Positions 3,697 through 55,067 of a DNA stretch of 64,000 nucleotides are shown here, piece by piece. The DNA is from Malassezia japonica. Lineage: Eukaryota > Basidiomycota > Malasseziomycetes > Malasseziales > Malasseziaceae. The stretch is from NCBI RefSeq assembly GCF_029542785.1, contig NC_083374.1, positions 186,001 to 250,000 of the forward strand, read 5' to 3'. The notes beneath the pieces are model-generated. The model saw nothing but the letters and a program-made list of their open reading frames with translations, was not told the origin of the DNA and ran no database searches. Positions within the stretch are counted from its first letter, which is position 1, and each line of letters begins with the position of its first letter. Made by a program: the position numbers and the translations under genes.

Positions 3697-4442
3697 CTAC
3701 AGAATGAGGTTCAGGCCAGCGTATCTGACGTAAGCATAGATGGCCGCGAGGCTGACACAGGCCAGCACGAGGTCCATTTTTACCACGCAGTACATCCACA
3801 GGGTGCCGAGCGCGGGGGTTTGGGTGATAGCCCTTCCATAGGGCGCCTGGGTTAGACTGGCAACTTACTTCGTTGACAAGGTATATAAAATGGCCTCCGC
3901 TGAGTGTGCCCAGTAGAAAGACGGTGCTCTGGACGAGCCACGCGCGGCGATCGCGCAGGGCTGCTGTTAGAAAGGGGAAACCTACTCCACCAGATGAACA
4001 AGACCAGGACTGAAAAATTGTGTCAGCACCGAGCTCTAGTGGGAATAAAACACGTACCCGGCAGACGCGATACGACCGTCTTGAGCTCGCGCAGGAGCGT
4101 CACTTCGACCTGGTATTGTTGCTGGATGAGAACATTGAGCAGCTCAAATACAAAGATGAAGGGCATGCACCAGATCAACAAGTCCAGGCTCGATTCGAGT
4201 GGCTCGCTCATGCGGTTGTCTTGGATTTCCTCGTAGAGTTCCTGCGCCGTAGGCTCCTCCTCGTCTTCCAGCTCGTCCGAGTCGGAATCGTCGAGGATCC
4301 AGTCCGACGCCTCCGGGGGAAGGCGCACCGGATTTCCGTATGCATCTATCGCGAACTTTTCGTACGTGGCGCTCGACCCCTCGGTAGGCACGTCGACACC
4401 GGCGTCGTCGGCCCCCGCGGGAATCTCGTGTAGGATCGCCAT
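3697..4442 (-). CDS. Fungal multi-pass membrane protein, DUF7719-like
   Basis: Four exons: 4058-4442, 3986-4009 (a 24-nt microexon), 3869-3963 and 3697-3846, giving about 217 residues. The N-terminal third is acidic (DDSDSDELEDEEE). Then come four or five hydrophobic segments: LDLLIWCMPFIFVFELLNVL, VLVLFIWW (the microexon), TVFLLGTLSGGHFIYLV and MDLVLACVSLAAIYAYV. The order LDLLIWC...QQY...LRELK...LGTLWMY fits the fungal family I know as DUF7719; function unknown. Introns are 48, 22 and 22 nt. The middle intron ends in CTAACAGCAG, so the acceptor may be 3 nt further on (25-nt intron), which drops one alanine. The start at 4442 is the first ATG in frame. It is divergent from the ATP synthase subunit d gene, with 152 bp between starts. 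Confidence 0.6.
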
Positions 4443-4594
4443 GACGCACAGACACACGCCGCCCCCCCGCGATTACGGTGCATGCAGGGACCTCCACATG
4501 GTGACTAATTCGGCCGAGAGGATGTGCCCGCTGGCCGGACGTGCCCGGAGCTGGCGGCGGACCCGACGCTCTGTTCGTGACCATCGTAGAGAAT

Positions 4595-5332
4595 ATGGCT
4601 TCTAAGGCTGCGGTTGATTTCAGCAAGGTCCTTGCCTCGGGCCTTGGCAAGCAGACTGCCTCGGAGCTTGTGGCTTTCCGCAAGCGCAGTGAGGAGGCCA
4701 AGCGCCTTGTGACCCAGCTCAAGGCGCAGCCGACCACGGTCGACTTTGCTCACTACAAGAAGCTGCTGAAGGTGTGTATTGGGTGTGCGCACGTCGCGCG
4801 CATGCATCGAGGCGATGCATCGAAAAGAGCACTACTAACACTCTCTAGAACCAGGACGTGGTCGCCACGGCTGAGAAGCTCATTGCTGACTTCAAGCCCC
4901 AGACCTACGACATCGGTGCTCAGACCAAGGCTCTTGAGTCCTTCGAGGCTTCGGCGGTACGTATTGCCTGTGTATGAAAGAGTGTGATCTGACCATGCGC
5001 GTGTTTTCGTGATTCCGCCCTGCTTGGATGTTGGATCGGATGACGGATGCATGTTTTTTTTATTGTACAGGTTAAGCAGGCTGAGGAGAGCGCTACCAAG
5101 ATCGAGGCTGAGCTTAAGGACCTCAAGGAGACTCTCGGCAACATCGAGGGTGCCCGTCCTTTCGACCAGCTCACCGTCACCGACGTGATCAACGCTCGCC
5201 CCGAGATCGCCAAGACCGTCGAGGAAATGGTCAAGAAGGGCAAGTGGACCCTGCCTGGCTACGAGGAGAAGTTTGGCAGTACGTATAACTCGCTGCGACG
5301 TGTACTAATACCCAGGCCTCGCCATGTCGTAA
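4595..5332 (+). CDS. ATP7: ATP synthase subunit d, mitochondrial F0 stalk
   Basis: Four exons (4595-4771, 4849-4956, 5071-5278, 5316-5332) give 169 residues. The sequence is typical of subunit d, part of the peripheral stalk of mitochondrial ATP synthase: ASKAAVDFSKVLASGLGKQT, FRKRSEEAKRLV, KPQTYDIGAQTKALESFEAS, then the conserved end RPEIAKTVEEMVKKGKWTLP and GYEEKFGSLAMS. The last exon codes only the final residues and the TAA; without its 37-nt intron the frame would run on into unrelated sequence. The other introns are 77 and 114 nt, the longest I found in the window. The start is ATG 4595 (GAATATGGC). Confidence 0.93.
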
Positions 5333-5680
5333 ACGACGGCGCTATCGATGTAGATCAGTATCGATCAACTGCATTACCCAACCCGCTCTGTCGGCCTTTT
5401 ATAGATGGTGGTGGTGTACCACATCGTGGAGCTGCTAGCTGCCTGCGATGCTGCGATGTCCGGCGCTGCCTCAGCTCACCGCCGCGCGGCAGCGCGTCCA
5501 CACCGCCTCTTCTCTGTTCGCGTCGGGCATCGGGCGTTATGGCCACGTGGCTTTGCCGGCAGCGCCGGGACCGCATTCCGTGATTGGATACGCGGGGTCC
5601 GGGCGTGCCTTGACCAACTGCCACAATTGCCAGGGCAGGTGCCTGTCTCCTTCTCATCGCTTCGCGAGGAGGAAACCACG
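5333..5680. other. Region upstream of PKA regulatory subunit
   Basis: An open frame runs upstream of ATG 5681 back to ATG 5405, but its 92 residues are Arg/Ala-rich, match nothing I know and drift into codons unusual for this genome. A CACGTG box at 5544-5549 suggests that part of this is promoter. I could not find a RIIa-type dimerisation exon in any frame here. Confidence 0.4.
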
Positions 5681-6790
5681 ATGACCCCGTCACAGGTTCA
5701 GTTTAGTGGCCCGTACGGCGGCGCACCCTTCGGCGGCGATGCCGAGCCTGCCGGTGCGTTCCCTGCGGGCTTTAATTTCGCGCGCCGTACCTCGGTATCG
5801 GCAGAGTCCATGTCGCCGCAGCTGAGCGAGGCCCGTACGCGCGCGGCCCACACGCAGGCCCCAAAAACCGAAGACCAGCAGCAGCGTATCCGTGCCGCTA
5901 CGTCGGACATTTTTCTCTTCCGCAACCTCGAGCCGGAGCAGTACCAAGCGGCGCTCCAGGCGATGGAAGAGGTGCATAAGCAGGCTGGGGATATCGTCAT
6001 TAAGCAGGGCGACCAAGGCGACTACCTCTACATTGTGGAGAGCGGCTCGCTCGACGTCTTTGTACAGCCTCCCGGCACGTCGCCCGCCGATGCGCTCGCT
6101 GCACCGCCCGACCAGCTCGGCAACAAGGTGGTGACGTACGGCCCCGGCGCCTCCTTTGGCGAGCTCGCGCTGCTGTACATGCAGCCTCGTGCGGCGTCGG
6201 TCGTGTCCACCGCACCCTGCACGCTCTGGGCCGTGGACCGCGTGACCTTCCGTTCGATCCTCGCCGAGGCCAACATGAGCCGCCGTGCGTTCTTCTCGTC
6301 GTTCCTCAAGCAGGTGCCGCTCCTGCAGCACCTCAACGATACCGAGCGCCTCCGTGTGCTGGACGCGATCGAGATCCAAGACTACAACCCCGGCGACGTG
6401 ATTGTGCGCGAGGGCGATATTGGTACCCACTTTTACATGGTCGTGAACGGCGTGGCCGACGTTCACAAGGCGTCGGATAGCGATGCGCCAGTGACGAAGC
6501 TGCAGCGTGGCGACTACTTTGGCGAGCTCGCGCTGATGCACAGCGCGCCGCGCGCCGCCACCGTCAGTGCGTCTGCCCAGCCGGGCGCGACAAAGCTGCG
6601 TGTAGCGGCACTCGAGGAGCAGGCCTTCACCCGGCTCCTCGGGCCGCTGACGGGCATCATGTCGCGGTACGCCGAGACGCACTACAAGAGCGCAGACGCG
6701 GAGCCCAGCACGCCGTCGACGCTGGCGCCGCCCGCAGGTTCAGATAGCGCGGCACCGATGCCGGGCTCACCACGCTCGGGTGCCTCGTAG
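5681..6790 (+). CDS. BCY1: cAMP-dependent protein kinase regulatory subunit
   Basis: From ATG 5681 the protein has 369 residues; an alternative ATG at 5405 would give 461. It shows the pseudo-inhibitor site RRTSVSAES near residue 36, followed by two cyclic-nucleotide-binding domains with phosphate-binding cassettes FGELALLYMQPRAASV and FGELALMHSAPRAATV. It holds PKA catalytic subunits inactive until cAMP binds. The N-terminal docking and dimerisation domain usual for fungal R subunits is not visible in either start version, although SFSSLREEE just before 5681 resembles the end of one. The start is therefore uncertain; I chose 5681 for its good context (A at -3) and the promoter-like sequence upstream. 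The gene converges on the AspRS gene with 24 bp between stops. Confidence 0.85.
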   Translation: MTPSQVQFSGPYGGAPFGGDAEPAGAFPAGFNFARRTSVSAESMSPQLSEARTRAAHTQAPKTEDQQQRIRAATSDIFLFRNLEPEQYQAALQAMEEVHKQAGDIVIKQGDQGDYLYIVESGSLDVFVQPPGTSPADALAAPPDQLGNKVVTYGPGASFGELALLYMQPRAASVVSTAPCTLWAVDRVTFRSILAEANMSRRAFFSSFLKQVPLLQHLNDTERLRVLDAIEIQDYNPGDVIVREGDIGTHFYMVVNGVADVHKASDSDAPVTKLQRGDYFGELALMHSAPRAATVSASAQPGATKLRVAALEEQAFTRLLGPLTGIMSRYAETHYKSADAEPSTPSTLAPPAGSDSAAPMPGSPRSGAS

Positions 6791-6814: not shown

Positions 6815-8977
6815 TTACATGGACTGCAGACGGTAGGGGCGCAGCGCTTCGTTCGTCGCTGCACGCCCGGCCTCTTCGAGCGGTGCGGGGCACGCGAGCA
6901 TCGCGTCGTAGCCGCCGGCGTTTTTCGGAAAGGCAATCACGTCGCGGATATAGGGCGTGTCGCAGAGCAGCGCCATCAGGCGGTCGAACCCAAGCGCGAT
7001 GCCGGCGTGTGGCGGCGCACCGCTGCGCAGCGCATGCAAGAGGTGCGCAAAGCGCTGCGTCTCCTCCTCGGTCAGCTCGAGGACGCGCCGCAGGACCGAC
7101 TCTTGCAGGTGGGGATCGTGGATACGCACGCTGCCTCCGCCAATCTCGCACCCGTTCAGCACGAGATCGTAGTGCTGGCCACGGATCGCGGCAATCACCG
7201 CGGGATCGGGCGTGGGGGCGTGAAGCGCATCGAGCAGACGGGGCACGTCTTCCGCGGCCGGCGCCGTAAAGGGGTGGTGCGAGCTGCTCCAGCGCCCATG
7301 TGCGGCCTCTTGCTTCTCTTCGTCGGAGCGCGTAAAGAGGGGAAACTCGGTGACCCACAGAATCTTGGGCGCGGCGCCGACGATCGCAGAGAGGTGATCG
7401 GCGAGGCGCAGGCGCAGATCGCCCATCTCGGTGCTGCCGCCGTGCGCAGGGAGCGTACGGCGGGCGACAAACACGTCGCACCGCCCTGCTTTCTCCATCG
7501 GGGCGCCGTCGGCAAAGACGGTGGCCTGCGCGAGCTCGGCCGCAAGTGCATCGGCGAGCGCGTCGACGTGTGCAGCGCCGTCCGGCTGCACGGCCGCAAG
7601 ATGGCGCGACTTTTTGGCGAGGAGCTGCGCAAGGCCGTCGGGATCGTCGGCCTTGGCTTTAAAGTGCTCGATCTGCGACCGCTGCCCGTCCTTGTTCTGG
7701 AGGAGCTGGTCGATCTGGCGGTTCGACAGGGATATCGGCGCCTCTTTCGACGCCGAGTGCGGCACGATCAGCACGTCGAGCGCCGCGTCGGACGCCGCGT
7801 CGACGCTCGGTGCCAGATCGGCGATCGTCAGGCCGAAGCGCAGATCCGGCTTGTCCGAGCCGTAGCGCTGCATGACATCGGCATAGGAATAGACAGGGAA
7901 GTCGCCGTGCGGAAGCAGCGCACCGTCACGGCCGGCGGCCGTCCACATTGCACGCACCATGCCCTGGACGACGTCGCGAATTTCCCTGCCGCCGATGCGC
8001 CAGACGCCTTGGCTCGCCTCGGCGCCGCTCACAAAGCTCATCTCCATATCGAGCTGCGTAAACTCTGGCTGGCGGTCTTTTCGCCCGTCCTCGTCGCGGA
8101 AGCACTTGGAGAACTGAAAGTAGCGGTCGGTCACGCCTGAGGCCATGAGCAGCTGCTTGGGCTGCTGCGGCGACTGCTGCAAAGCATAGAACGACGGCGC
8201 GTCCGATGCGCCGCGTGTCGGCACGAGGAACTCGCGCGCGCCTTCCGGCGTCGAGCGCAGGAGCACCGGCGTCTCGATCTCGCAGAATTCGGCGTCGTGC
8301 AGGAAGCAGCGCGCGGCGTGCGCGACATGGCTGCGTTTGCGGATATTTTCGCCGAGTTCGGCGCGGCGCAGGTCGAGGTAGCGGTACCGCGCGCGGAGCG
8401 TTTCTTTTGGAAGAGGCTTGCCGGGGACGCACTGCGTCGGGTAAAAAGGAAGCGGCGCGGCTGCATTCAGGAGCTGGAAATCGTCGACCACGACTTCGAT
8501 TGTGCCGGTGCGCACGTCCTGCGTCAGTCAGCCGAGCGACGTACCGATTTCTTATCTTTTTCGGCGCGCTCGCGCACCGTGCCATAGACACATACCACGC
8601 TCTCGACCGGCACGTCGCAGAGCGATGCAAGCAGCGCTTCGTTCGCTCCGTCGAGTTTCAGCTGCACGGTCCCCGAGCGGTCACGCAGCGGGACAAACGC
8701 GAGCTGCTTGGATATTTTTCTGCATGAGCCATAAAACCTACCGTGGCATCATCATCCAGCCGCCCAGCACGACGCGCTCGCCAATATGCGCGTCGTGCAG
8801 CTCGCCGCACGCGTGCGAGCGGGGCTTGGCGGCCCACTCTGCAGCGATCTGCACGCGGTTCGGGCTGGTATGCTCCAGGCGGCACCCCACAGCTACGCGC
8901 GGCACTCCAGCACCCCGCCACGCGCCCCGCGCCGCCGCACGCAGCGCACGCACCACCTGCCCACCCGCGGCACGCAT
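6815..8977 (-). CDS. MSD1: Aspartyl-tRNA synthetase, mitochondrial (bacterial type)
   Basis: Three exons (8742-8977, 8545-8719, 6815-8518) give 704 residues. The N-terminus is rich in Arg and Ala without acids (MRAAGGQVVRALRAAARGAW), a typical mitochondrial presequence, followed by CGELHDAHIGERVVLGGW, the anticodon-binding OB fold. Class II motifs follow: RARYRYLDLRR, FRDEDGRKDRQPEFTQLD and the motif 3 region GIALGFDRLMALL. The long insertion between motifs 2 and 3 is that of bacterial-type AspRS. It charges mitochondrial tRNA-Asp. Introns are 22 nt (8720-8741) and 26 nt (8519-8544). The start at 8977 is favoured over a further upstream in-frame ATG because it gives the clean presequence. Confidence 0.92.
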
Positions 8978-9117: not shown

Positions 9118-10488
9118 ATGTCTGAAGTTGTGAATGAGATTAAGGTATGTATATTGATATAGTTGATCTCACACAGGCTGAGGCTCCCTGGTCGGTCGAC
9201 CACAAGTCTGGCGAGGCCATGTCGGTCGGGCAGAAGGCCGAGGCCGCCGCCACCGGCGCTGGTGCGTCCCCCGCTATCGAGCAGCCCAAGGGCGCCGCCG
9301 CGGCTGCCCCTGCGGGTGTGACCGAGAAGGCGGGCACTGCTGCTGAGCAGGTTGCCCCCAAGGCTGCCACCGAGTCGGCCGCGCCCGAGGCGGAGGCCAC
9401 CGTGGCCGCCGCCAAGGCCACCGAGGTCGAGCCGGAGACGATCGTCGCCTCCGGCGTGAAGCCCACCGAGGTCGAGCCCGTGGCTGGCTCGACTGAGAGG
9501 GCCGCCGGAGCTGCTCCCGTCGCTGCTGATGCCGACTCCCCGGTCGCCACGACGATGTACACCACCGAGACTCCCGCGGTGGTCGAATCGGCTGACCACC
9601 ACCTCGTGGGCGAGTCGCTCCCTATCACGCACAGTACGTTGCCATGCTAACGCAGCTCGTATCCCCGACTATGACGAGGGTGTGAAGCCCGCGCCGGCGA
9701 TCCTGAACAACGACCTTGCTAGCCTGCTGCGCCAGGGCAACGTCAGCCAGGACACCACCTACCTGGCCCCCCGCGGCACCTTTGAGGACCAAGTCGCGCA
9801 AACCGAGGCTCCTGAGGAGTTCCCTACCCGCTCGACGTACGGCTCGTCGATTCCGGAGGGCTACCAGACCTCGACCGCCCCGCTGAGCTACCTCTCGGGC
9901 ACCCACATCTCCCACACCGCTCACGCTACCGCGCAGGACACCGAGCCCGTGTCGGCCCACGCCGGCTCGACGCTCCCTGCCACGAACCTGCGTGAGTCGA
10001 ACATCGTCTCGGAGCCCACCCCCGCGCTTGAGACCGAGCCCACTGCCGAGCAGCCCTGGTCGGTGCGTGGCGCGGACGCTGGTGAGTACACTGCTGCTGC
10101 CACCACGGGTGAGGAGGCCACTCCTGCCGTCCCGTCCAAGACCGAGGGCACGGACGCGGTCGAGTCGGCCGCCGGCGAGGCCAAGGACGCCAAGTCGGGT
10201 GGCCCCCTGTCGGGTGTCACGGGCGCCGTGGGTGGTGCCGCCTCGGGCGCTACTGGCGCCGTGGGTGGTGCCGCCTCGGGTGCTAAGAACGCTGCTGGCG
10301 GTGCTGCTTCGGGCGTTACGGGCGGTGCCAAGAACGTCACCTCGGGTGTCACGGGCGGTGCCAAGAACGCCGCCAACACTGGCAAGGACACGCTCGGCAA
10401 GGCCGCTGGCCAGCCCAAGAAGGCCGGCTTCCTGACCAAGTTCAAGAGGGCGCTGCACATCGGCAAGGAGGCCAATGCCGCCCAGTAA
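9118..10488 (+). CDS. Unrecognised Ala/Gly-rich disordered protein
   Basis: Three exons (9118-9144, 9177-9633, 9656-10488) give 438 residues; introns are 32 and 22 nt. I do not recognise a family. The sequence is Ala/Glu/Pro/Thr-rich and lacks hydrophobic segments. It has two copies of a short block, APWSVDHKSGEA near residue 11 and QPWSVRGADAGE near residue 305, a central better-structured part (TRIPDYDEGVKPAPAILNND, RQGNVSQDTTYLAPRGTFED), then an imperfect repeat tract of GAVGGAASGAT and GGAKN units. It ends in a basic helix (FLTKFKRALHIGKEANAAQ) that could bind membranes. Codon use is strongly biased to GC-ending codons, as in highly expressed genes. A stress or surface-associated role is possible but unproven. 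Confidence 0.75.
10210..10390 (+). repeat. Imperfect Gly/Ala/Ser coding repeats
   Basis: Within the unrecognised protein, about 36-nt and shorter units recur, translating to SGVTGAVGGAASGATGAVGG and then SGVTGGAKNVTSGVTGGAKN. Such tracts are prone to length change between strains. Confidence 0.7.
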
Positions 10489-19319: not shown

Positions 19320-20268
19320 CTAATTCTCGTCCATCGGCGCTTCGGTCGGCGCATCGGTCGGCGCCTCGCCCTCGGTCGGCGCGTTGTTCGCGTCGGTCTG
19401 TTCCTGTGCGGCGCGCTGGCGCTCCTTGGGCCCGAGACTAGGTTAGATAGAGTACGTACGCATCAAACCACGCGGCGAGCTCGTCGCCCTCGTGCATTGT
19501 AAACTTTTGGCCCTCGCGCGCTTCCGGCGCGTTGGGATCCGCATCCGCGCCGGGCCCCACGATCGCGACCGAGACGGCGGCGCGCTCGAGGTCCTTGTTC
19601 TGCGGCAGGGTCTCGCGCAACGCACGCAGCGCATGGTGCACGAGCGCGTCGAGGTCCGCCTCGGCAAGCTCCTCCATGTGGCGCTCGAGGTAGGTCTTCG
19701 CGCTCTGGTTCCGCGCGCCGAGAGACATGGCGTAGTACTCGAAGCAGTTGCCCGTCGGGCTGAACTCGTACAGATGCGGCCCGGTGCCGTCGACGCCGAT
19801 CACCAGGAACCCGACGCCGTACGGGCGCTTGCCGTACTGCATCGTGTTCAGCTGCGCGCGGTCTGCGAGCGCGCTCATCATGCGCGACACCGGGAGCGCG
19901 CGCGCGTACATCACGCGCGACGAGAGCGCGAGCTGGCGCATGTAGTTGCTCAGCACACGCGCGTCGCTCGTGAGGCCCGCAAAGCCAATGCCCATGTGCT
20001 GGTCGATCTTGAGCATCTTGCGCTGGTACGACGCAAGCTCGGACGGCGCGCGCTTCAGCGCGACAAGCACCGCGTGCGTCTTGGAGCGCACGCCGACGAC
20101 GGCCGAGCCTTGCTTGACCGCTTCCAGCGCATATTCCACCTGGTGCAGACGGCCCTGCGGCGAGACTGGGTCAGCGGAGATACGTACAGACTGTGTTGTC
20201 GCTATCGTACGTGCTGGGTGAGTCAATCTGCGTACTTTCGGAACTGGGTCAGCCAATGCACGCACCAT
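19320..20268 (-). CDS. PRE5: 20S proteasome subunit alpha-6
   Basis: Five coding exons give 286 residues: 20266-20268 (ATG only), 20236-20243 (8 nt), 20188-20213 (26 nt), 19460-20165 and 19320-19437. All four introns are exactly 22 nt. The spliced start is MFRNTYDSDNTVFSPQGR, the canonical alpha-6/PSMA1 N-terminus, which proves the tiny exons. The body continues HQVEYALEAVKQGSAVVGVR, SKTHAVLVALKRAPSELASY, RPYGVGFLVIG and QSAKTYLERHMEE. The fourth intron replaces a spurious early stop with an acidic tail ending APTEAPMDEN. Alpha subunits form the gated outer ring of the 20S core. Starts of this gene and SRP receptor beta are 66 bp apart. Confidence 0.94.
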
Positions 20269-21577: not shown

Positions 21578-24134
21578 ATGTCACTGTCGCGGCGTGCATC
21601 GGTGCCGAGCCGGAAGCGCGCGACGCCGGGAGCGGCGCCTGTGCGGACGCAGCGCGTGGAGCGTGAGCCGGCGCTGGAGAAGCTTGCCGAAGGAGCGCTT
21701 CAGCTCGACGACGACGAGGAGGGAGACGAAGACGAGGAGGAGGACGACGAGGAGCACGAGTTTCCCGAGCTCGACGTCGAGGAGGATGACGAAGAGGACG
21801 AGGACGAGGAGGACGAGGAGGAAGAGGACGAAGACGAAGACGAGGAGGGATTCGACTCGGACGATATCGACAACTGGGACGACTCGGACGACAAAGGTAC
21901 GCCCCCCTTCTGACGCAGTCCACGGCGATGTCGCAGCCACGGTCGGTGATCTGGAGGATGCCGAGGAAGGCGATGCGGCGCTTGCGCGCATGATTGCGCG
22001 CGAGCGCGTCAAGCCGAACGAGAGCGCGCGCGAGACGAACCGTCTCGGTATCGACAAAGCGCACGCCGCGCGTTTCTACGACGACGCACGCAACGATGAC
22101 GGCTCGATGCGCGGCCGTGTCGTGCGCTCTGCCATCACGGGCGGGGAAAAGATGGAGTACCCCCCCATTGAGCCCGAGTACGACAGCGACTCGAGCACCG
22201 AAGAGGCCGAGAACCGCATCGGCAACGTCCCGCTGCAGTGGTACGACGACCTCCCCCATCTCGGCTACGATATCAATGGCAAGCGCGTCATGCGCCCCGC
22301 GCAGGGCGACGAGCTCGACAAGTTCCTCGACACGGTCGAGGGCGACGGCGATGCGTGGTTCTCTGCGCACGACAAGCTGGGCGGCAAGGACGTGAAGCTC
22401 ACCGACGAGGAGCTCGATATCATCCAGCGTCTGCAGCGTGCCGAGATCCCCCTGGACAAGTACGATCCCTACGAGCCGGCCACGGACTGGTTCACTGGCA
22501 AGGAGCACCAGCTGACGATGCCGATGACGGCGCGCCCCGAGCCCAAGAGCCGTTTCGTCCCGTCCAAGTGGGAGCACAAGAAGGTGATGAAGATTGTGCG
22601 TGCCATCCGCCAGGGCCGGATCGTCGCGCACGCGCCGGGCAAGGAGAAGCCCGCGTTCTACAATATCTGGAGCGAGAGCGACACGCCGCGCGCCGACCAT
22701 GCGATGCACATGCCGGCGCCCAAGCTGCCGCTGCCGTCGCACGTCGAGTCGTACAACCCCCCCGAGGAGTACCTCTTCAACGACGAGGAAAAGGCCGAGT
22801 GGGAGGCCGCGGACCCCGAGGACCGCAAGCTGTCGTACATGCCGACCAAGTACGGCGCGCTGCGCCTCGTGCCTGGCTACGAGGCCGCGATCCAGGAGCG
22901 GTTCCAGCGCTGCTTGGACCTGTACCTCGCGCCCCGCGTGCGCCGCAAGCGCCTCGACATCGAGAACCCCGAGGACCTCTTGCCCAAGCTCCCGTCGCCG
23001 CGCGAGCTGCGGCCCTTCCCGACGCACACCGACGTGGTGTACGCGCACGCCGGGCGAGTGCGCACCGCCGCGCCGGATCCGACCGGCAACTGGCTCCTGA
23101 CCGGTGCCGAGGACGGCTTCGTGCGCCTGTGGGACACGGCGCTCGGCCGCAGCGTCGCGGCGTGGGACATGAACGTGGGCGTGGCGAGCGCCGACAAAGG
23201 ACCGGTATACAGCGTGCAGTGGTGCCCCACGAAGCAGTACGCGCTCGCGGCGGTGGCGTGCGCGGGCCGCGTGACGCTCCTTGCGCCGCCGCAGTGTGCG
23301 CCGCGCGCCGACGGCCCGACGGCCGGGCAGCAGGTCGCGACCGCGGCCTTTGCCACCGTCGCGCCTGCGACCGAGGGGCCGGTGCGCTGGGCGCGGCCGT
23401 CCGAGACGGAGCGTGCGTCTGGCGTCTGCGCGCACGTCCACCTTTCCGCCCAGCGCGCGAACAAGACCACGCCGCTCGTCCCGAAGCAGGTGCGCTGGCA
23501 CGGCCGCGGCGACTACTTTGCGACGGTGTGCCCCGACGCGGGCCCCCAGGCGGTGCTCATCCACCAGATCTCCAAGCACCGGTCGCAGGCGCCGTTCAAG
23601 CGTGCGCGGCGGCAGAGCAGCGCGGCGTTTGCCGTGCAGTGTGTCGCCTTCCATCCCTCGCGTCCGCTGCTGTTTGTCGCGACGCAGCGCTACGTGCGCA
23701 TCTTTGATCTCGTGCAGCAGGCTTTGCACAAGACGCTGCAGCCGGGTGTGCGCTGGATCAGCTCGATGGACGTGCACCCGAGCGGCGACCACCTGCTCGT
23801 CGGCTCGTACGACCGCCGCGTCCTCTGGTTCGACCTGGACCTCTCCGAGCGGCCGTACCGCACGCTGCGCTACCATACACGCGCGGTGCGCGCGGTGGCG
23901 TTCCACCCCCGGTACCCCTTGTTTGCCACCGCGTCGGACGACGGTACCGTGCACGTATACCACTGCACTGTCTACTCGGACCTGCTGCAGAACGCGCTGA
24001 TCGTTCCCCTGAAAGTCCTGCGTGGGCACAATGTCGTGGATTCGCTCGGCGTGCTCGATGCACAGTGGCACCCGACGCTGCCGTGGCTCGTGAGCGCGGC
24101 CGCGGACGGCGACGCACGCCTCTGGACTCCGTAG
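21578..24134 (+). CDS. ERB1: Ribosome biogenesis protein Erb1/BOP1
   Basis: Two exons (21578-21896, 21919-24134) give 844 residues; the single intron is 22 nt. Residues about 45-100 are an almost pure Asp/Glu tract. The BOP1 N-terminal domain follows (NRIGNVPLQWYDDLPHLGYD, GKRVMRPAQGDELDKFLD, YDPYEPATDWFTGKEHQL, RFVPSKWEHKKVMKIVRAIR), then seven WD repeats starting near PTHTDVVYAHAGRVRTAAPD. Erb1 works with Nop7 and Ytm1 (PeBoW) in 60S subunit maturation in the nucleolus. The TAG at 24132-24134 directly abuts the stop codon of the convergent L2HGDH gene. A CACGTG box at 21510-21515 lies in the 76-bp upstream gap. Confidence 0.94.
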
Positions 24135-25682
24135 TTAGGCCCAACCGTCGAGGCTGTCGTGCCCGACCTGCTCTACGTACTTTTGCGCTTTGCCGCGGGG
24201 GTTGTGCTTGCCCCACACACGCGCCGCGAGCTCGTCCGCGACATGCTCGGCCAGCGCCAGCGACGAGGTCAGCCCGGGGCTCTCGATGCCGAGCAGCGAG
24301 ACGAGCGTACCGGCGCGCGCGGTGTCGGGCAGCGCATGCTGCCAGACCTGCTGGCTGCCCAGGTCGCGGCTCGCGTGCCACAGGATCTGGAAGTCGGCAA
24401 AGGACTTGGCGTCGGGGCCCACGAGCTTGGGGCGGATGCCGCTGTAGTCGGGCGACAGCCCGTCGCACGAGACGCCGGGGAGGTACTTTTGGATCGCCGC
24501 ATGCATCGCGGCGAACCACGCGTCGGTCGCGTCGGGGTACAGCTGCTTCTCCCAAAAGTCGTGGACGTAGCCGAGGGCGTCGGGCGTGTCGTCCAGGTGC
24601 GCGGGGGGGCTCAGCCACTGCGCGTCGGGGCCGAAGCGGACGTTGCCTTCGAGGTCGAGCGTGAGGTGCGCTGCGTTAGGTAGGAAACGTACTTCCAAGC
24701 GACTGGTGCGCATGCGTGCCCTTGCCTCCTCCGCCGCCAAAGTTCGGCGTGGGGTACAAGAGATGGCGGACCTTGTCGACGCCAGGGCCACGGTAGCTCG
24801 CGTAGCTGCCTTTCGAAAAGTACATGGGAATCATGTCGTCGGATCCGCCGCCCAGCTGGTCCACCAGCGCGTTGAGCGCACGCGGGGCGTTGAGGCCCGA
24901 CGTGTTGATCACGACCTGCGCTAAGAGCGCATCGGTATCCTGCGCGTGCGCCGCATCGTGCGTCACGGTCTGCACCACCCAGCCGTCCTGCGACGCGTCG
25001 GCGGACTGCACCGGGGCGTGAGGATCAATACGCACGACCGACGTGCCGTAGACGACCTGCGCATCCGGCGACGTGCCATCCGGCAGCGTATCGAGCTCGG
25101 TCTCGAGCTGCGCCATGAGCTCGTGCGCGCTGACGATGCCGGTAATCGGCGAGTGCAGCGCGTGCGAAATGCTCGGCGAGAGATTCGGCTCGAGCTCACG
25201 CGCCTCGTCGCCCGAGAGGAGTGTGACCGGCGGCGCACGCTCGCCGAGCTCGTCACAGTGCGCATGCAGCTGCTCGAGGTACTTGGCGTCGGCCGGCGTG
25301 CTGCCCACGACCAGCTTTCCGACCTGCTTGACGCCGATCGATGGCGCGGCGCGCGCGCGTTCGTACAGCAAATCGCGCCCACGCAAGCAGAACCGCGTCT
25401 TGAGCGAGTCGGTGGGATAGTATAGACCCGCGTGGATCACCTCGCTGTTGCGCGAGCTGGGTGAGAAGGGGCGACGCACCTGGTTTCCTGGCCACACTGG
25501 CCATGGCGCTCGACGACGTACGTTGTCTTGTCCGGCCAGCGGCGCGCGAGTGCATTGGCGACAGCCAGGCCCACGACGCCGGCTCCGATCACCAAGTGGT
25601 CCACGCGCACCTCGGGCGCGCGGTACGCGTACCGTCCGTGCGCATTGAGCTTCGCCAGGAGCGGCCGCACGGCGCTCGCCAT
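24135..25682 (-). CDS. L-2-hydroxyglutarate dehydrogenase, FAD-dependent, mitochondrial
   Basis: Three exons (25480-25682, 24693-25456, 24135-24670) give 500 residues; introns are 23 and 22 nt. The FAD dinucleotide-binding motif is VDHLVIGAGVVGLAVANALA, near residue 27, followed after splicing by [20 protein letters not shown], then GIVSAHELMAQLE, PMYFSKGSYASYRG and RHLLYPTP. The end includes SLGIESPGLTSSLALAEHVA. This is the L2HGDH/DAO family that oxidises L-2-hydroxyglutarate to 2-oxoglutarate as metabolite repair. A short basic N-terminus could target mitochondria. The stop codon TAA (24135-24137) begins on the base after the ERB1 stop. Divergent from SNF7 with 73 bp between starts. Confidence 0.88.
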
Positions 25683-25755: not shown

Positions 25756-26478
25756 ATGTCGGGGTGGCTCAACTGGGTGAGCGGCAAGCGCGACAACAAG
25801 AATGCGGCGCGCGACGCAATCATCGGGCTGCGTGAACAGCTGCACCTCATCAACAAGAAAGAGGAGCATCTCCTGACCAAGATCGACGACGAGCTGCGGA
25901 AGGCCAAAGCGAATGTCACGACGAACAAGCGGGGTACGTCGCCTCACTAACAGCAGCGGCGCAGGCGGCGCTCCGGCAAAAGAAGCTGTACGAGACCGAG
26001 CTCGACCGTCTCTCGGGCAACCGCATGACGCTCGAGACACAGGTCAATGCGATCGAGAACGCCAATATGAACCTCGAGACGATGCGCGCGATGCAGCGCG
26101 GCTCGGCGGCGCTGAAAAACATTCACCAGAACATGTACGTGTATTTCCTGACGCAGGGACATCGACAAGGTCGACAATACTATGGACAACATCCGCGAGC
26201 AGATGGCGCTCTCGAACGAGATCTCCGAGGCGATCTCGAACCCGGTCGGAATGGGCAACGAGCTCGACGAAGACGAGCTGCGCGACGAGCTCCAGGAGCT
26301 CGAGCAGGAGGAACTCAACGAGCGCCTTGTGGGCGCAGACGCTGCGCCGGCACATACCTTGCCTACGCCTGCGCCGGCGGCAGCGAGTCCGGCTCCCGCG
26401 CCTGCACAGCGCACGGCGTCTTCGGCGGCGGACGAGGACGAGGAACTGCGTGCGCTCCAGGCCGAACTGGCCATGTAG
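25756..26478 (+). CDS. SNF7: ESCRT-III subunit Snf7/Vps32
   Basis: Three exons (25756-25933, about 25957-26134, 26157-26478) give 225 residues. The protein is the expected Snf7 core: basic N-terminal helix ([20 protein letters not shown]), coiled coil ([40 protein letters not shown]), [35 protein letters not shown], then the acidic autoinhibitory C-terminus and a MIM-like helix [13 protein letters not shown]. It polymerises on endosomal membranes for cargo sorting and scission. The first intron ends CTAACAGCAG; using the second AG (23 nt) keeps the branch spacing seen elsewhere, the first (20 nt) would add an alanine. The second intron is 22 nt. Confidence 0.94.
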
Positions 26479-29058: not shown

Positions 29059-31922
29059 TTATAGGATATTCTGCGTGAAATTTTGGTATTGGTCGTACAA
29101 GCGCGTAAACGCGCTGCCCGCCGAGCTGAGGATCAGGCGGTCGACAAATTCGTCGCATTGGGTCGCGGTGAGCGTCAGCTGGAAGCGGTCGCGCAGGTTG
29201 GCGGTCGCCATGTCGCCGAGCGCAAAGCACGGCAAATTCGACTCCTTCTGCATCAGCTCAACAAGCATGATGAAGCGCTCGGCGTGCTTGCGCACGTCGC
29301 GGAATCCCTGGCGCATGAGCATCTTGAACTCCTGGAAGCCCTCCGAGTCCATCCCGCCGAGGATCTCGATATAGTCACGTGGCAGCTTGAACGGCGCGGC
29401 TTCAAAGCCGACGCCGCCCGGGGAGATGCCGAGCATGAAGCCAAAGTCGATGTGGATGAGGTGTCCCTCGGTGTCGACGAGGATATTGCCATTGTGGCGG
29501 TCCTTGATCTGGAGGAGGTACGACGCGATGGCATAGCCCGCGAGCGACTCGGTAAAGTGGCGGCGCGCGCGCCGGAAGCGCTGCGAGTGCGGCTCGCCAA
29601 AGGTCTGGACAAAGTGGTCGTAGAGCGAGTAGGTGGCGATCGGGTTGCCGTCCATCTGACGCGCGTACGCGTCCTTCTTGATCGAGTGGATGGAAATCGC
29701 GTCGGTGATCGTCTCGATCAGGCCCGCGTCCTCGTTCAGGACGACAATCCTAAAGTAGTGGACCCAGCAGCGCGAGCCGCAGTCCTGCCAGACGCGGCGG
29801 AACTCGTTGATGAGCTGCACGGCAAACTGCTCTTGGCGCAGGTCTGCGCCGGTCTTGACAATCACCGAGAACAGGTCCCAGGTCGGCAGGTGGCCGTACG
29901 GCGACGAGGCGCGGATGCGCTCGCGCTTGGCGGTCCACGACTCGCGGAAGTACGCCGCGGAGGGATCGTCCTTGTTGACTGCGCGCAGCACCGCGGTCTC
30001 GTCTTCGGCCGCGAGCTGGTTCGGCTTCTGGCGGCCAAAGAACTGTCCGCCCTTTTTCATGCGCTCCATGCGCTGTTCCTCGAGCGCCGCCATCTCGTCC
30101 ATGATACGCTGCCGGATCTTTTCCGTGTCTGCCGAGTACACCTTGGTCGCGCTCGGCGTCGCGGCCGGCGCGGGCGCCTCGGGCTCCGGCGCGGGCGTCC
30201 CGACGATCCAGCTGCTCCAGCTCTGCGGCGCGGGCGTCGCGGGCGTGTGTGTCATGACGTTCTGGCTCGTGTTCGCGTTGCTGTTGAGCTGCGCAAGCAT
30301 CACGGCGGCGGTGCGCATGCGCTGCGCATACTCCTCGAGGGTAAAATCGCCGCGCGTCGCCGGTGTGCTTTCGCTCGCGCTGTGCGCCCACGCGGCCGAG
30401 TCGAGCGTGTGGTTCTTTTCACCGATGCCCCCGTCCTCGTCGCGCTCCGCGCCAAACGCCGCGAGGTCCGAGCCGTACATTTGCTCGGTCAGGTCCATCT
30501 CCTCCGGCCGCGGCTGCGGCGTGAGTGGCGTCGCGGGGCGCATGTCGGGGGTATCCGGCGCCGACGACGCCTCGGCCTGCGCGAGGAACAGCGGCGCGAT
30601 CGGTGTACTGCTCGACTTGAGGCCGAGGAGGCGCTGGAGCAGTTCGCGGTTGTAGCGGCGCTCGGGGTCAAAGTCGAGGTCGTTGCGCAGCACCTCGACG
30701 TGCAAGAGGTACGGCACGCGGTCCGCCGAGTTGAGCACCACGGCCTCGCTCGCACTGATGCGCACGACGCGGTGGTGGCGCTCCGCGTGCCCGGCATGGT
30801 CGTCGGCCGTGCCGCTGCACCACGTCGGGAAGCACACTTCGGTCGGCAGCGTGTGGTTCAGCGCGGTGAGCTCGGCGCGCAGTGCCGACAGGCGCGCGAG
30901 CTTCGGCAACGGCTGCAGGCGCGCGGCAATGTCCTGCAGGGCCTGGAGGAACTGCGTCGCGGTGCGCCCATAGTGCGAGCGCAGGTACTGCCGCTTGGCC
31001 GCGGCGCTATAGCTGCTTGCATCGAGCCTCGCATCGCTCGCCCCCACGTCGTTCGTCGACGCAATGGCGCGGGGCGCGTCGGCGTGCGCGCTCAGCTCCG
31101 GGACGGACGCAGAGCTGATGCGCGAAAGGCGCATCGCGAGCTGCGCCTCTTCGTTCTGGCCGAACGCGTCGCGGATCGGATCCGGCTCGGACCGCTTGGG
31201 CTTGGGCTTGGGCTTGGGCTCTTGCGGGGCCTCGGTAGGCACCGGCAGTGCCATGGGCTCTTGTGGGCCATCGTCGTCGTCGGCGGGCGTCGGCTTCGCG
31301 TCGCTCTCGTGCGGCCGTCGGCCCTGCTGCAAGGCGACCCCCCCCCCGTATGCTGCGAGCTCTGGGCACCCGATGCCCGCGAGTCCGGCGCCGATCCCAA
31401 CAAGACAGCTGCGTGCATTGTTGGGCAGCACCTTTTTGCGTGTCTCGAACACAGGAAGGAACTTTTGGAGGAGCGAGCGGGGCGGGCGCCCGACCGGCTC
31501 TGGATCCTCAAACAGGATGCGCTGGCACCGGTTGTACACGCGCTGGCACGTCCGAAACGCCGGCGAGGTCGGCTCCGAGGCGAGGTCCGCGAGCTGTGCC
31601 TGGATGTACCACAGCGTGATGAGCGCCGTGTGCACGTCCTCCTCGCAGCGGCGCAGAATAAAGCACTCGAGTGCGCGCGACTCGCTCGGCTTGGTTACGA
31701 GCAAATGACTGCGTTAGACGCGCCACGTACCAGTACTGGGGCCAGTAGAATTCCACCTCTTCTGGGGTAAAGTCGGTGCACAGCTTCGAGATGAGGTAGT
31801 AGGTAATCCCGACATGGTCTGAATACGTCCGCAAGCTGTGTGAGCCTCGACACCTACTAAGAGAGCGCCAAGTGCGGCGAAAAGTAGTCGCTGTTGAACA
31901 GGCGCAGCAGCAGACTCGCCAT
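29059..31922 (-). CDS. PIK1: Phosphatidylinositol 4-kinase, PI4K-beta/Pik1 type
   Basis: Three exons (31858-31922, 31731-31835, 29059-31708) give 939 residues; both introns are 22 nt. The N-terminal exons encode the lipid kinase unique domain: MASLLLRLFNSDYFSPHLAL, SYLRTYSDHVGITYYLISKL and FTPEEVEFYWPQYCHLLVTK. A long variable region follows. The kinase domain is at the C-terminus with FSVIVKTGADLRQEQFAVQL, the catalytic loop KDRHNGNILVDTEGHLIHID and FGFMLGISPGG. Pik1 makes PI4P at the Golgi and nucleus for secretion. Its start is 74 bp from the TRA1 start, with CACGTG in between. Confidence 0.94.
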
Positions 31923-46611: not shown

Positions 46612-47731
46612 ATGTCTGCCCCGCCGCCGCCGCCCTACTCGGAGCTTGACCCCAATCCAGGGCAGGTGCGGAGGCGTCCTACGCTGCCGAATCCTCCCTC
46701 CCAGGCGATGCCGAATCCGTGGGAGGCAGCTGCGAGGACTCAGAGTGCGTCGCACGTACCACCCCGCCGCACTGCGCCCGTGCATGCGCCGCCGAATGCA
46801 GTTCCCCCGCCGCGTGCAGACCCCCGCGTCGCTGCGTCTCGTCCGGAGCACCATTCCTCGTCTCGATCTGCCCCCCAGCGCCAGGTGAGCGTACGTGATG
46901 TGCCCGAGGACCAGTTTGAGCTGCTGAGAGACTATGACACGATCTTCATCATCGACGACTCTGCCTCGATGCAAGTCAACGAGATGCCGGATGGCTCAAT
47001 TGGCCCTAGTCGCTGGGATGAAGCGCGTGATGCGCTTTGTGGGGTCGTGCGTATTGCTGCGCGCTACGACGACGACGGCATCGATGTCCATTTCATCAAT
47101 GACAAGCGCAGCCTGTTGCGCTGCAGAGACCCCCGCATGGTTCAGCAGCTCTTTCACGAAGTGCGGCCTCGTGGAGCGACGCCGACTGGTGGCCGATTGG
47201 AGTTGCTCCTGCTCGACTATATGGATGCGATCGAGTACGCTGCGCACAAGAACAAGAAATACGGTCCTGGTACCGTGAAGCCGCCCAAGCGGCGCAATGT
47301 ACGTCGCTCGTCTCACGCAGTATGTCATCATTACCGACGGGGCTGCGACCGATGATCCGGAGAGTGTAATTGTATCGTGTGCGCAGCGCCTGGACGATGG
47401 CCGTTTTCCCCTGGCGCAGATTGGTATTCAGTTTATTCAGGTCGGCAACGACCCCCGCGCGACAGAGGCGCTGGTTGACTGTACGTCCCCCTACTGACCG
47501 CAGTGGATGATGCTCTGGCTCATGTACGCAACCAAACTGACACAGCAATATCGCATTCGAGACATGGTCGACACGGTTCCCTTCCAGTCGATGCAGCTCA
47601 GCTCGCAGATGATCTTCAAGGCGCTGCTGGGCGGCATCAACCGGCGACTGGACCGCCAAGCGCCCTCTATGGCCCCGCAATCTTCCTCACGCGCGTCGTC
47701 TGAGCGTCGCGCACGCCGTTCTGGTAGATAA
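46612..47731 (+). CDS. VWA-domain protein with Pro-rich N-terminus
   Basis: Four exons (46612-47298, 47321-47480, 47504-47523, 47546-47731) give 350 residues; introns are 22, 23 and 22 nt, and the third exon has only 20 nt. Residues 1-95 are Pro-rich and disordered (SAPPPPPYSELDP contains a PPPPY motif). The VWA fold follows with an intact MIDAS: DTIFIIDDSASM (DxSxS), GATPTGG (Thr) and YVIITDGA (Asp). It ends DLDDALAHQYRIRDMVDTVP, LLGGINRRLDRQ and a Ser/Arg tail. The family is widespread in fungi as intracellular VWA proteins of unknown role. The short exon is required to join ALVDLDDALAH to QYRIRD in frame. Confidence 0.85.
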
Positions 47732-48298: not shown

Positions 48299-48954
48299 AT
48301 GAACGATGTGCTGGGTGCGCTCTTTGCGCTCTTCGTGATATGGTTCATTCTGAGGTTCATTGGAGGCGGTGCGTGTAGCCAAGAAACTAATATAGGCAGC
48401 GGTGGTTCCGGAGCCATGTCGCCGCGCGATTCGCATACGACGCAGCAAATGGTAAGTGCCGAGGCTAATGTAGGTCGACACGGTCAAGGCCATGTTCCCT
48501 GATATCCCTGAAGTGTCCATTCGGTACGACTTGCTTCAGTCGGGAAGTGCAGAAGCGACGTGCGACCGTATTTTGCAGGACGGATACCTGCCCATTGTAC
48601 GTGACGCGCCTCACACAGCCTCCCCCACACTTTCCTGGCGCCGCCGAGCTCCGGCGGCCGCCTGCGACGCCGCGGGCCACACCAAGTACCGCGGCGCAGA
48701 GCAGCGCACCATCCACGACGCAGGGAAGCACGCCGAATCTCATTACGCGCTACAAGCTGGACGAGCGTGTGCAAAAAGAAGACGCTGGCATGGCGCCGGC
48801 CAGCAGCGTGTCCCCCCCCACTCCTGCTGTGGACTGGAACGCGCAAGCAAAAGATCGCGAGGCGGCCCTGAATGAACGCAAGGCGCAGCTGATTCTCCAG
48901 GCACGTAAGCGCATGGTCCAGCGCAAGGCGAGCGCCGAGTCCCACGCGACGTGA
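48299..48954 (+). CDS. CUE1: Cue1-like ER protein with CUE domain
   Basis: Four exons (48299-48368, 48396-48451, 48474-48596, 48619-48954; introns 27, 22 and 22 nt) give 194 residues. An N-terminal membrane helix (LGALFALFVIWFILRFIG) is followed by a Gly/Ser linker and the CUE domain VDTVKAMFPDIPEVSIRYDL, LQSGSAEATCDRILQDGYLP with the MFP and LL ubiquitin-contact positions. The C-terminal helix (NERKAQLILQARKRMVQRKA) resembles the Ubc7-binding region of Cue1 and relatives. It likely recruits a ubiquitin-conjugating enzyme to the ER for ERAD. Confidence 0.84.
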
Positions 48955-49015: not shown

Positions 49016-49705
49016 TTACGCCTTGACGAGCTGGATTAGACACGTCACGTACCTTGAACGACCACGAAAAGTCGGCGTACACCACGCCGTCGTCGTCGAT
49101 GATCCTACTGCGGACGCTGTTGGTGCCGCTGCGCGCGAGCATTCCGCTTGGCGCCTCGCTCGGGGCAAAGCGCTTCACGTACGGCTCTCCACGGGGGGGA
49201 TACGACCCAATCATCTCTTCCATGCGGTCGACCGGCAGGCCCGCACGGCGCACAACGTGGAGGTACTTGAGGCCCGAGAGCACTTCGCGGCCGACGCTGC
49301 GTCAGGACAGGCACGTACGTAAAGTTGATCACGACCGCGTACTCGATTCCCTCGGGGATCTGGAGGGGGTTCTTGCTCACGCGTTCCAAGTCGCCCGGCT
49401 GATCGAGCTGGATGCCGATGCTCCCCGACGGAATCTTGTCACTTTCCAACGCGAGCGAGTGGATCGTGAGCTGAATTAGTCTCGCTTCTTACCTTGGGCT
49501 CATTCGGGTTCGGCGCGCTTCCGCCGGCCGTGATACCGAGCGACTCTTTCCAACGACGCAGGCTCTCGTCCTCGGCATCCAGCGCTGCATACTCTTGCAG
49601 CGACTTCTTCTCGCCGGGCTGGTATCCCGCAGTGGCTATCGTTAGCCGAATCGACCTACGTGTAGGGTTCAAGTCGTCCTGAACAGCCGGGTTCTCACTC
49701 GCCAT
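49016..49705 (-). CDS. RDI1: Rho GDP-dissociation inhibitor
   Basis: Five exons (49660-49705, 49493-49635, 49319-49470, 49053-49296, 49016-49030) give 199 residues; introns are 24, 22, 22 and 22 nt. The protein has LQEYAALDAEDESLRRWKES, the Rho-binding arm, then the immunoglobulin-like isoprenyl-binding domain with VGREVLSGLKYLHVVRRAGL, EMIGSYPPRGEPYVKRF, EAPSGMLARS and IIDDDGVVYADFSWSFKLVK. It extracts prenylated Rho GTPases from membranes. The last exon supplies only LVKA and the stop, as in other RhoGDIs. The first intron (24 nt) is a multiple of three with no stop, so retention would add eight residues in frame. Confidence 0.94.
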
Positions 49706-53340: not shown

Positions 53341-53403
53341 CACGATCGAGCGCCGAGAACCCTGCGGGAGGATTTGTCTTTCTTCGCTGCCACGTGGCTC
53401 CAC
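53341..53403. promoter_or_regulatory. 63-bp divergent promoter SUP35/OST2 with E-box
   Basis: CACGTG at 53391-53396 lies within the 63 bases between the two start codons, the shortest divergent spacing seen here. If OST2 starts at the second ATG (53425) the gap is 84 bp. Confidence 0.5.
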
Positions 53404-53830
53404 ATGGGCGGGTGGCTTGACCGCATGCCTCCAAGCAAGTCGACCAAGGCCGCGCCGAGGCCCTCGGCCCTCGGCGAGGTGTCCGGCGCGCTGCACAAGC
53501 TCACGTCGTCGTACGAGAGCACGACGCCGGCACGCTTTAAGCTGATCGATGCGTTCCTCCTGTTCCTCTTCATTACCGGCGTCGCGCAGTTTGTGTACTG
53601 CGCGCTGCTCTCCAACTACCCGTTCAACTCGTTCATCGCGGGCTTTGCCTCGACTGTCGGCCAGTTTGTGCTCGCGATGGCACTGCGTATCCAGACGAAT
53701 CCCGCGAAGGATGCGGACAAAGGCGAGGCGTCCCAGGGCCGGTACGTCGCGAAACTCACCCAGCGCGTTTGCCGACTTTCTCATTGCCTCGGTCGTGCTG
53801 CACTTCTTTGTGATCAACTTCCTGGGCTGA
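53404..53830 (+). CDS. OST2: Oligosaccharyltransferase subunit Ost2/DAD1
   Basis: Two exons (53404-53741, 53764-53830; 22-nt intron) give 134 residues, or 127 from the second ATG at 53425. Three membrane helices are present: LIDAFLLFLFITGVAQFVYC, FNSFIAGFASTVGQFVLAMA and FLIASVVLHFFVINFLG. The sequence STTPARFKLIDAFLLF, YPFNSFIAGF, LRIQTNP and RAFADFLIASVVLHFFVINF is diagnostic of DAD1/Ost2. It is needed for N-glycosylation in the ER. The stop is 8 bp from the convergent YVH1 stop. Confidence 0.94.
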
Positions 53831-53838
53831 TCTATAGA

Positions 53839-55067
53839 TTATACTTGGTCTACCTTGGCGCGCTGTAGCGCAAATGCGGGTGTGACCCAGGCACCACTGT
53901 GTAAGAATCGACACGTACCATGCACACTGCGAGCCGACCCAGGTCCAGGTGCCGAGCTTGGCGTTGCACCGCGTATTGGGGCACTGCAGGCGCCCGCCCA
54001 TCTCGCCTTCGACGAGCCCGGAGGACTCGCTCATCCACCCGAGCGGCTCCACAAAGTACGCCGAGCACTGAGGGGAGAGGAGCAGGGGGCGCTGTGTGGT
54101 TTGCGCCATCATCCCGGCGCGAATGCGAGCGAGCTGAGGGGGGAGGTGGGTATGCTCAGGCTCCTGCATGCGCGCGGGCGTGTGGCCGACGCCTTTGCGC
54201 GCCGCGTCGCGCCGGTGCGGCTCAAAGGCCTGCTCGCCTTGGCCGGGCTCGTGCACGACGACGTGCTGCTCGACGGCCAGCTCGTGGCGGCACACTTTGC
54301 AGCGCAGCTTTGTGAAGCGCTCTTGCTTGACCTCGTTCACATCGATGCGGTAGTCCGAGTAGGGGTCTGTCGGTGCCGTGTAGGGGTAGGTGCTCAGCAG
54401 CATGTCGGGGCTCACGGCCCCCTCGAGCGCGTTCGTCTGGCTCACGAGGAAGCGGCGCACGTCGCGGCTCTGCAGATTCACCATGTAGTTTTCGCGCTGG
54501 TATAGCTCGAGCCTGTGTCAGCCAAGGCACGCACTGCTTCATGAAGCCCTCGTTCGGCGCGGCGATCGGGCGCTGCCGCCGAATGAGCGCCAGGGCCTGG
54601 GCGACGCTCAGGCGCCGACTCCACATGAGGTAGGCGGCGACGATCGTGACGCTGCGCGAGCACCCCGCCTGGCAGTGCACGAGCAACGAGCCTTCCGTGC
54701 GCGAGCTCCAGAGGCCCGGGCGGCCGTCGCGCAGCGTCAGTCCGTCGATCGCATGGTCGTCCACCTCCTCGTACGGCTCCGGGTCGGCCTCCCACTCCTC
54801 CTGGAGCGCATTCGCTATAAACTTGTTCGCCAGCGCAAAGTAGATATACGCGGGCGCGTCGTCGTCGTCGTTAATCGGCACGACCATGCGGTGGTCGTCC
54901 GGAATTTCGCGCGTGCTGTCGCCCTCCGCGAGCGAAATGTCCTTTGGCGGCACGGGCGGATTGCGCAGGCACGACACCACCCATTGGATGTTGGCTTGCT
55001 CGAGGTAGTCTGCCTCTAAGCACGAGGGGAGCTCGCCGATCCACAGGTGCGGCACCACCTCGTCCAT
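53839..55067 (-). CDS. YVH1: Dual-specificity phosphatase Yvh1 with zinc-binding domain
   Basis: Three exons (54535-55067, 53919-54512, 53839-53896; both introns 22 nt) give 394 residues. The phosphatase domain starts MDEVVPHLWIGELPSCLEAD and has the P loop VHCQAGCSRSVTIVAAYLMW. After the first intron come LELYQRENYMVNLQSRDVRR, and then the Cys-rich C-terminus: LRCKVCRHEL, CSAYFVEPLGWM, LQCPNTRCNAKLGTWTWVGS and CACGAWVTPAFALQRAKVDQ, which binds zinc. Yvh1 releases Mrt4 from pre-60S ribosomes, mainly through its zinc domain. The final exon is required for the last zinc ligands. Its first intron differs at only two or three positions from the first intron of PRE5. Confidence 0.93.

Follow-up and report, generated by a model that had tools for sequence, protein, structure and literature searches.

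Putative spliceosomal introns of exactly 22 nucleotides with a common internal layout in Malassezia japonica

The window analysed here is a stretch of 64,000 nucleotides (nt) from the basidiomycete Malassezia japonica (contig NC_083374.1, positions 186,001 to 250,000; C5:186001-250000 in our contig numbering), a fungus placed within Ustilaginomycotina. A reading made from the sequence alone had reported 22 introns of exactly 22 nt in its genes, all built on the same ruler of a 6-nt donor, a 7-nt spacer, a 5-nt branch box and a 4-nt acceptor. Each was re-read by letter and all 22 were found at the places reported, starting with GT, having CTNAY at bases 14-18 and finishing with AG. The donor was, as claimed, mostly GTACGT (12 of 22), the others being GTACGC (three), GTAAGT, GTAGGT and GTGCGT (two each) and GTAAGA (one); GTRNGT donors in 18 of 22 and GT...AG ends in all of them are those of U2-type introns. 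With one mismatch allowed, the layout was recovered 24 times in the window (2.07 expected by shuffling), and 22 of these 24 were the reported introns. The two additional places were located at 8519, inside a 26-nt intron, and at 39585, antisense in a long open reading frame.

The introns are distributed over genes of various functions, and support for their removal was sought in the continuity of the encoded proteins across the splice junctions (window coordinates; junctions in amino acid positions, aa). Several of them interrupt regions matched by protein families: those of the DUF7719 gene (3847..3868, minus strand; junction at aa 159.0, DUF7719 match from 139 to 205), of the gene for an MSD1-like Asp-tRNA synthetase (8720..8741, minus; aa 78.7, tRNA_anti-codon match from 69 to 154) and of L2HGDH (24671..24692, minus; aa 308.3, DAO match from 28 to 454), one intron of PIK1 (31709..31730, minus; aa 56.7, PI4KB-PIK1_PIK match from 18 to 91) and one of CUE1 (48452..48473, plus; aa 42.0, CUE match from 39 to 78). 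The other PIK1 intron (31836..31857, minus; aa 21.7) also falls within the PI4KB-PIK1_PIK match but close to its edge, as does one intron of YVH1 (54513..54534, minus; aa 177.7) with respect to the DSPc match 124-184. Gapless stretches span the junctions of SNF7 (26135..26156, plus; aa 118.7), aligned with solved SNF7, and of OST2/DAD1 (53742..53763, plus; aa 112.7), aligned with DAD1. For four splices the support is an open frame: those of the gene at 9118 (9634..9655, plus), of ERB1 (21897..21918, plus), in an acidic region upstream of BOP1NT where retention leads to a stop after aa 111, of the second CUE1 intron (48597..48618, plus) and of the other YVH1 intron (53897..53918, minus), whose retention also leaves an open frame (429 aa).

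The most striking arrangement was found in PRE5 (proteasome alpha 6, minus strand), where exons of 3 nt (the start codon), 8 nt and 26 nt are parted by three 22-nt introns at the start of the gene (20166-20268). Intron 1 (20244..20265) stands immediately 3' of the start codon and is followed by the 8-nt micro-exon (20236..20243), by intron 2 with donor GTACGC (20214..20235), by the 26-nt exon (20188..20213) and by intron 3 (20166..20187). Both small exons of the spliced model are supported by alignment to the solved proteasome alpha-1 chain 3unb_E. Introns 1 and 2 are supported by 3unb_E and by Malassezia PRE5 proteins, and at intron 3 there is no gap against 3unb_E and the M. furfur protein is identical. 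The proteins on public record for M. japonica and M. furfur continue across the junction of intron 4 (19438..19459). The spliced protein begins MFRNTYDSDNTVFSPQGR, a start also present in one entry from M. furfur. Over 96% of its length it is 100% identical to the PRE5 protein that is public for M. japonica, which is without the first exons and starts MVLSPQGR. Among eight other Malassezia PRE5 entries, the full start is present in P0002 and P0007 and stands behind other residues in P0009, and the start is shortened or altered in the five remaining ones (P0003, P0005, P0008, P0010 and P0043). Joint retention of the first three introns (66 nt) leaves the frame open and gives a start unlike that of any relative compared; the start of PRE5 is therefore decided by the relatives and not by the frame.

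In RDI1 (minus strand), one junction (49031..49052) is common to P0121, the protein that is public for M. japonica, and to relatives, and two others (49297..49318, and 49471..49492 with donor GTAAGA) are spanned by P0121 and by solved RhoGDI chains. The RDI1 model equals P0121 except for 8-9 residues, which are encoded by an unspliced 24-nt intron (49636..49659), in frame, stopless and absent from P0121. RDI1 thus holds at least one intron beyond the three reported, and this 24-mer near the gene start, which is outside the 22, was missed by coding-based gene finding. For the VWA gene, no family for the protein was found in Pfam, and relatives were used instead: an alignment of four of them spans both junctions (47299..47320 and 47524..47545, plus strand). 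The predicted protein P0150 tracks the VWA protein, with one difference, up to the first junction and then diverges; its length (247 aa) is that expected if the intron at 47299 is retained. As P0150 illustrates, automatic predictions apparently keep these introns and, in practice, public gene lists can misread genes holding them, as for the PRE5 starts.

Overall, continuity with relatives or protein families across the junction had support in 18 of 22 cases. The claim of the sequence-only reading that each gene yields a family-standard protein only with these cuts is too strong when based on frame alone. Because 22 equals 3n+1, keeping any single one of these introns shifts the frame; in 17 cases this truncates the protein and in five it extends it (3847, 26135, 49031, 53742 and 53897), so that an open frame by itself does not dictate all of the cuts. 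Decay of RNA keeping such an intron may be a further step, though five of the 22 retained forms would be longer and not shorter.

The genome (8,433,779 bases in nine contigs) was searched with a strict pattern, GTACGT-N7-CTNAC-NCAG, and with the reversed pattern as a control. The strict pattern was found 1784 times (922 + 862) and its control not once. When the spacer between the strict ends was reduced to 0-6 bases, only five sites of 15-21 nt were recovered, none of them of 21 nt (control: three), and spacers of 8-37 bases returned 457 sites of 23-52 nt (control: 15). Among the first 100 of these 457 sites listed, all from contig C1, the lengths from 23 to 28 nt were represented by 45, 16, 14, 4, 5 and 4 sites, respectively; as estimated from 45 per 100 of 457, about 206 strict sites of 23 nt exist genome-wide, versus 1784 at 22 nt. 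The distribution thus consists of a wall below 22 nt, a spike at 22 nt and a falling tail above it. The 22-nt introns had been taken for a second size class, which was not borne out: introns of 23-28 nt adjoin them, and 22 nt is both the edge and the mode of one continuous distribution. A looser pattern, like the gene finding, arm tables and frame comparisons reported below, was applied to a 264-kb subset (C1:1-200000 and the window), where it detected 87 sites of 22 nt (control: one), as compared with 52 strict ones. By extrapolation, perhaps some 3000 introns of 22 nt are present in the 8.4-Mb genome.

Intron lengths were also evaluated with a self-trained gene finder in which lengths of 10-200 nt were equally weighted. 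In its first rounds, for which it was given no more than GT, AG and coding statistics, 22 nt was the most frequent length from the outset (13 of 67 introns, followed by 21 of 72 and by 18 of 83). In later rounds a 6-column donor matrix, first derived from introns of 60 nt or less, and a 9-column acceptor matrix were learned, and these converged on donor GTACGT and on the acceptor unit CTNACNCAG. After this learning, 65 of 137 introns were of 22 nt, 18 of 23 nt and 10 of 25 nt, the share at 22 nt not being an unbiased one because a motif-trained finder favours these motifs. Introns are not nearly all of one length, the rest ranging from 23 to 185 nt besides doubtful calls of 16 and 20 nt. Both doubtful calls were without a branch box and look wrong: at 2072, a 32-nt intron with CGTCAG at its end seems by eye a better reading than the 20-nt one called, and the other call, of 16 nt, is at 63831. 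The finder also fuses introns across micro-exons, calls of 56 and 59 nt corresponding to two 22-mers around 12 and 15 nt, and a call of 122 nt to two 22-mers around 78 nt. Successive 22-nt sites were observed 12, 14, 15 and 17 nt apart, which probably represents micro-exons. A deficit of lengths divisible by three was hinted at by the gene finder, which is biased against such introns, and was gone in the motif count at 23-28 nt.

At the 87 loosely defined sites, the best coding frames on either side were compared, using a coding model trained on genes that included 62 of the tested sites, a mild circularity. Of the 35 sites flanked by clear coding sequence on either side, 34 showed the jump expected for removal of 22 nt, and none was without a jump. 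At random coding places used as a control, no frame jump occurred in 427 of 443 cases.

The spacing of the signals indicated where this length comes from. On the donor side, the branch adenosine was at base 17 in 69 sites with the box 2 nt before AG, at base 18 in ten and at bases 14-16 in none. On the acceptor side, the gap between branch box and AG was 2 nt at 99 sites, 3 nt at 27, 4 nt at 11 and 5 nt at eight (controls: 1, 1, 3 and 1), and a gap of 1 nt occurred once, versus twice in the control. The box is thus anchored 2 nt before AG in most introns, as in Yarrowia, and in the 22-mers the branch adenosine, located by motif, is fixed at base 17. The length is 22 nt because both arms pile up at their minimum, 17 nt to the branch adenosine and a tail of 5 nt. 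The 7-nt spacers were varied and nearly free (0.01-0.53 bits per position). Two donor-side positions were enriched in C: position +4 in 55 of 65 22-mers, 28 of 37 introns of 23-30 nt and 21 of 33 above 30 nt, and position +9 in 39 of 65 22-mers (G in one), 15 of 37 and 8 of 33, respectively. At +4, A is the common donor base, unlike the C observed here, though a gene of the METTL16 family is present. Extended pairing with U6 can be offered as a guess for the reason of +9C.

Components of the splicing machinery were searched for, orthology being taken from the best match. U2 was matched at 123 bits (C2:763486-763677); it carries GTGTAGTATC, and its branch-pairing segment GTAGTA is intact. With this segment the CTNAY box, present in 22 of 22 introns, would be able to pair. 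U6 was matched at 81 bits with an intact ACAGAGA. All five splicing-related protein families searched were matched, Slu7, Prp18, SF1-HH and a METTL16-family methyltransferase above cut-off. U2, SF1 and U2AF had been proposed as places to look for lineage-specific changes; the branch segment of U2 looks ordinary, as does the ACAGAGA of U6, and for SF1 and U2AF65 the result is limited to matched genes. A tail as short as 5 nt might permit the loss of Slu7 or Prp18, which is rejected here since both genes were matched. Sites of this kind lie in some of these genes themselves: a 22-nt site is found where the two matched frames of the METTL16-family gene join, and sites of 22 and 23 nt flank a matched piece of Prp18. 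The SF1-HH pieces (C1:62350-62662, minus strand) are in different frames and join at a run of eight C, where either the sequencing slipped or the frame is genuinely broken. On the same contig, C1:1-60 consists of CTAATC repeats, which are telomere-like of TTAGGA type, not TTAGGG.

Taken together, the layout, the counts, the frame jumps and the protein continuity support the view of real, spliceosomal-looking and uniform introns at a minimal distance. They are very probably ordinary U2-type spliceosomal introns, shrunk to the shortest form that the Malassezia spliceosome accepts, and splicing would be the process that removes them. Their length would be set by two independent minima, the branch adenosine coming no nearer to the donor than base 17 and the tail, C-N-Y-A-G, occupying 5 nt. 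Recognition may need just a strong donor GTACGT and the fused branch-acceptor unit CTNACNCAG, and an ordinary spliceosome most likely reads such introns by intron definition. There is no space for a pyrimidine tract; contact with U2AF65 would therefore be small or absent. A donor-branch arm of 17 nt would imply a different geometry before activation. The floor may represent a physical limit of the spliceosome, onto which introns would be pushed by deletion pressure in a compact genome.

Several observations weigh against this interpretation or against the extent given to it. Besides the motif bias of the trained gene finder, only 16 of the 22 reported introns were singly called by it: three PRE5 introns were merged, and one VWA intron and both of the CUE1 gene were missed. 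Over all 87 loose sites, the expected frame jump was found at 70, none at four and another one at 13. The looser pattern also returned one site each at 15, 16 and 18 nt (control: 0), and branch boxes were scattered at base 13 (four) and base 10 (one), all of which we take for chance. The branch adenosine was placed by motif alone. The U2AF65 match (224 bits) was under the model cut-off of 310, perhaps since it is split into pieces. For U1, neither the Rfam model RF00003, whose controls were silent too and which is thus not evidence of absence, nor a pattern for its 5' end and first loop gave a match, the latter likewise not showing absence.

Among the rival explanations, it is highly improbable that these segments are not introns at all but indels in the assembly, programmed frameshifts or a short mobile repeat. 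Each kept segment does shift the frame as an indel would, but the signals fit U2-type introns, alignments of the spliced proteins show no gap where the junctions fall, and three of these very junctions are used by the public RDI1 protein P0121. Given how much their spacers differ, the segments are not duplicates of a single element. Introns of the minor (U12) type or a different route of splicing, an idea to which strong signals at a fixed distance lend something, are improbable in the extreme. The U12 donor and branch signals are ATATCCTT and TTCCTTAAC, and donor and branch differ from them in 22 of 22 introns; major-type U2 and U6 are present, no search having been made for U12 itself.

Closer to the ordinary U2-type explanation is the question whether the spliceosome tolerates a minimal distance or is tuned to it, both of which the sequence-only reading had allowed. 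The sharp floor and the approximately nine-fold drop from 22 to 23 nt favour a limit, and perhaps a preference. It is quite possible, if short of likely, that 22 nt is the best-spliced length and is held by selection, introns of 23-28 nt being spliced less well. The drop from 22 to 23 nt (1784 versus about 206) is far steeper than the later steps, and length-dependent efficiency has been described for other lineages with tiny introns (PMC10245619, PMC5014332, PMC12862383), but strict GTACGT counts may favour 22-mers if longer introns carry weaker donors. In either case, ordinary U2-type introns at their floor would provide a clean natural experiment on minimal donor-branch-acceptor spacing, with about 1800 strict sites and perhaps 3000 introns. 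A donor-branch distance of 17 nt appears to be enough with ordinary-looking U2 and U6 segments and matched SF1, U2AF65, Slu7 and Prp18 genes.

Very short introns have been reported before in this genus. 'Very short introns' of Malassezia are already published (PMC7426719), and gene finding in M. restricta, with RNA sequencing (RNA-seq), allowed minimum introns of 20 and 15 nt (PMC6473144, PMC9241646). Median introns of 30 nt in M. restricta and 40 nt in M. arunalokei are given (PMC6473144, PMC9241646), and M. globosa annotations have mean introns of 76 and 79 nt. The portions concerning the annotation of M. restricta and M. arunalokei, of the same genus, describe neither a 22-nt peak nor a branch ruler (PMC6473144, PMC9241646). 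Among the matches listed, as far as their text was accessible, no paper on a 22-nt edge or branch ruler in Malassezia was found. A proteogenomic paper of 2017 on M. sympodialis and a genome paper of 2013 may describe such introns.

Outside the genus, the fused branch-acceptor unit is closest to that of Yarrowia lipolytica, which also has no pyrimidine tract and, by our count, the same 5-nt tail (PMC2483917, PMC13309789); one nucleotide separates branch box and acceptor in 72.5% of its introns (PMC13309789). Unlike those studied here, Yarrowia introns are much longer (204 and 268.75, taken as median and mean, in a table of 2008) and their donor is GTGAGT (PMC2483917, PMC13309789). The introns of Stentor coeruleus (15-16 nt) share one dominant length, a fixed branch adenosine (base 10 of 15) and a 5-nt tail, but their branch adenosine is at base 10, not 17, and they are AU-rich with a weak branch consensus, which is strong here (PMC9505925). 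Mikrocytid introns (16-17 nt) are likewise very uniform and conserved, with 217 of 224 measuring 16 nt, and are served by a reduced spliceosome (PMC10245619), whereas many longer introns exist here and all five splicing-related families searched were matched. Type B introns of Trichomonas (about 25 nt, the shortest 23) are of near-equal length with the branch fused to the acceptor, but they number only 24 and are separate from a long class (PMC12316389), and their branch motif and AG lie 4 nt apart (PMC2483917). Ultra-short introns are genome-wide in the Bigelowiella nucleomorph (18-21 nt) and in Paramecium (median 24-25 nt), as they are here (PMC10245619, PMC12862383). A deficit of lengths divisible by three is reported in ciliates (PMC5014332); none was seen here at 23-28 nt among the first 100 of 457 sites listed.

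Splicing efficiency is reported to favour 16 over 17 nt in mikrocytids (PMC10245619), 18-20 over 21-27 nt in nucleomorphs (cited in PMC5014332) and 23-26 nt over other lengths in P. bursaria (PMC12862383), and human extracts need about 50 nt from donor to branch, short distances being aided by Smu1/RED (PMC6692369). A two-armed gate can tentatively be proposed, possible but somewhat doubtful, in which the 5-nt arm from branch to end, common to Stentor, Yarrowia and M. japonica, may set a general floor for the second step and the 17-nt donor-branch arm is peculiar to the lineage, introns collapsing onto both and 22 nt being an optimum rather than a mere limit. A general 5-nt arm combined with a lineage-specific other arm would be a hypothesis drawn from three lineages. 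Tiny introns are thus known in ciliates, nucleomorphs, mikrocytids and Trichomonas, and short ones in Malassezia.

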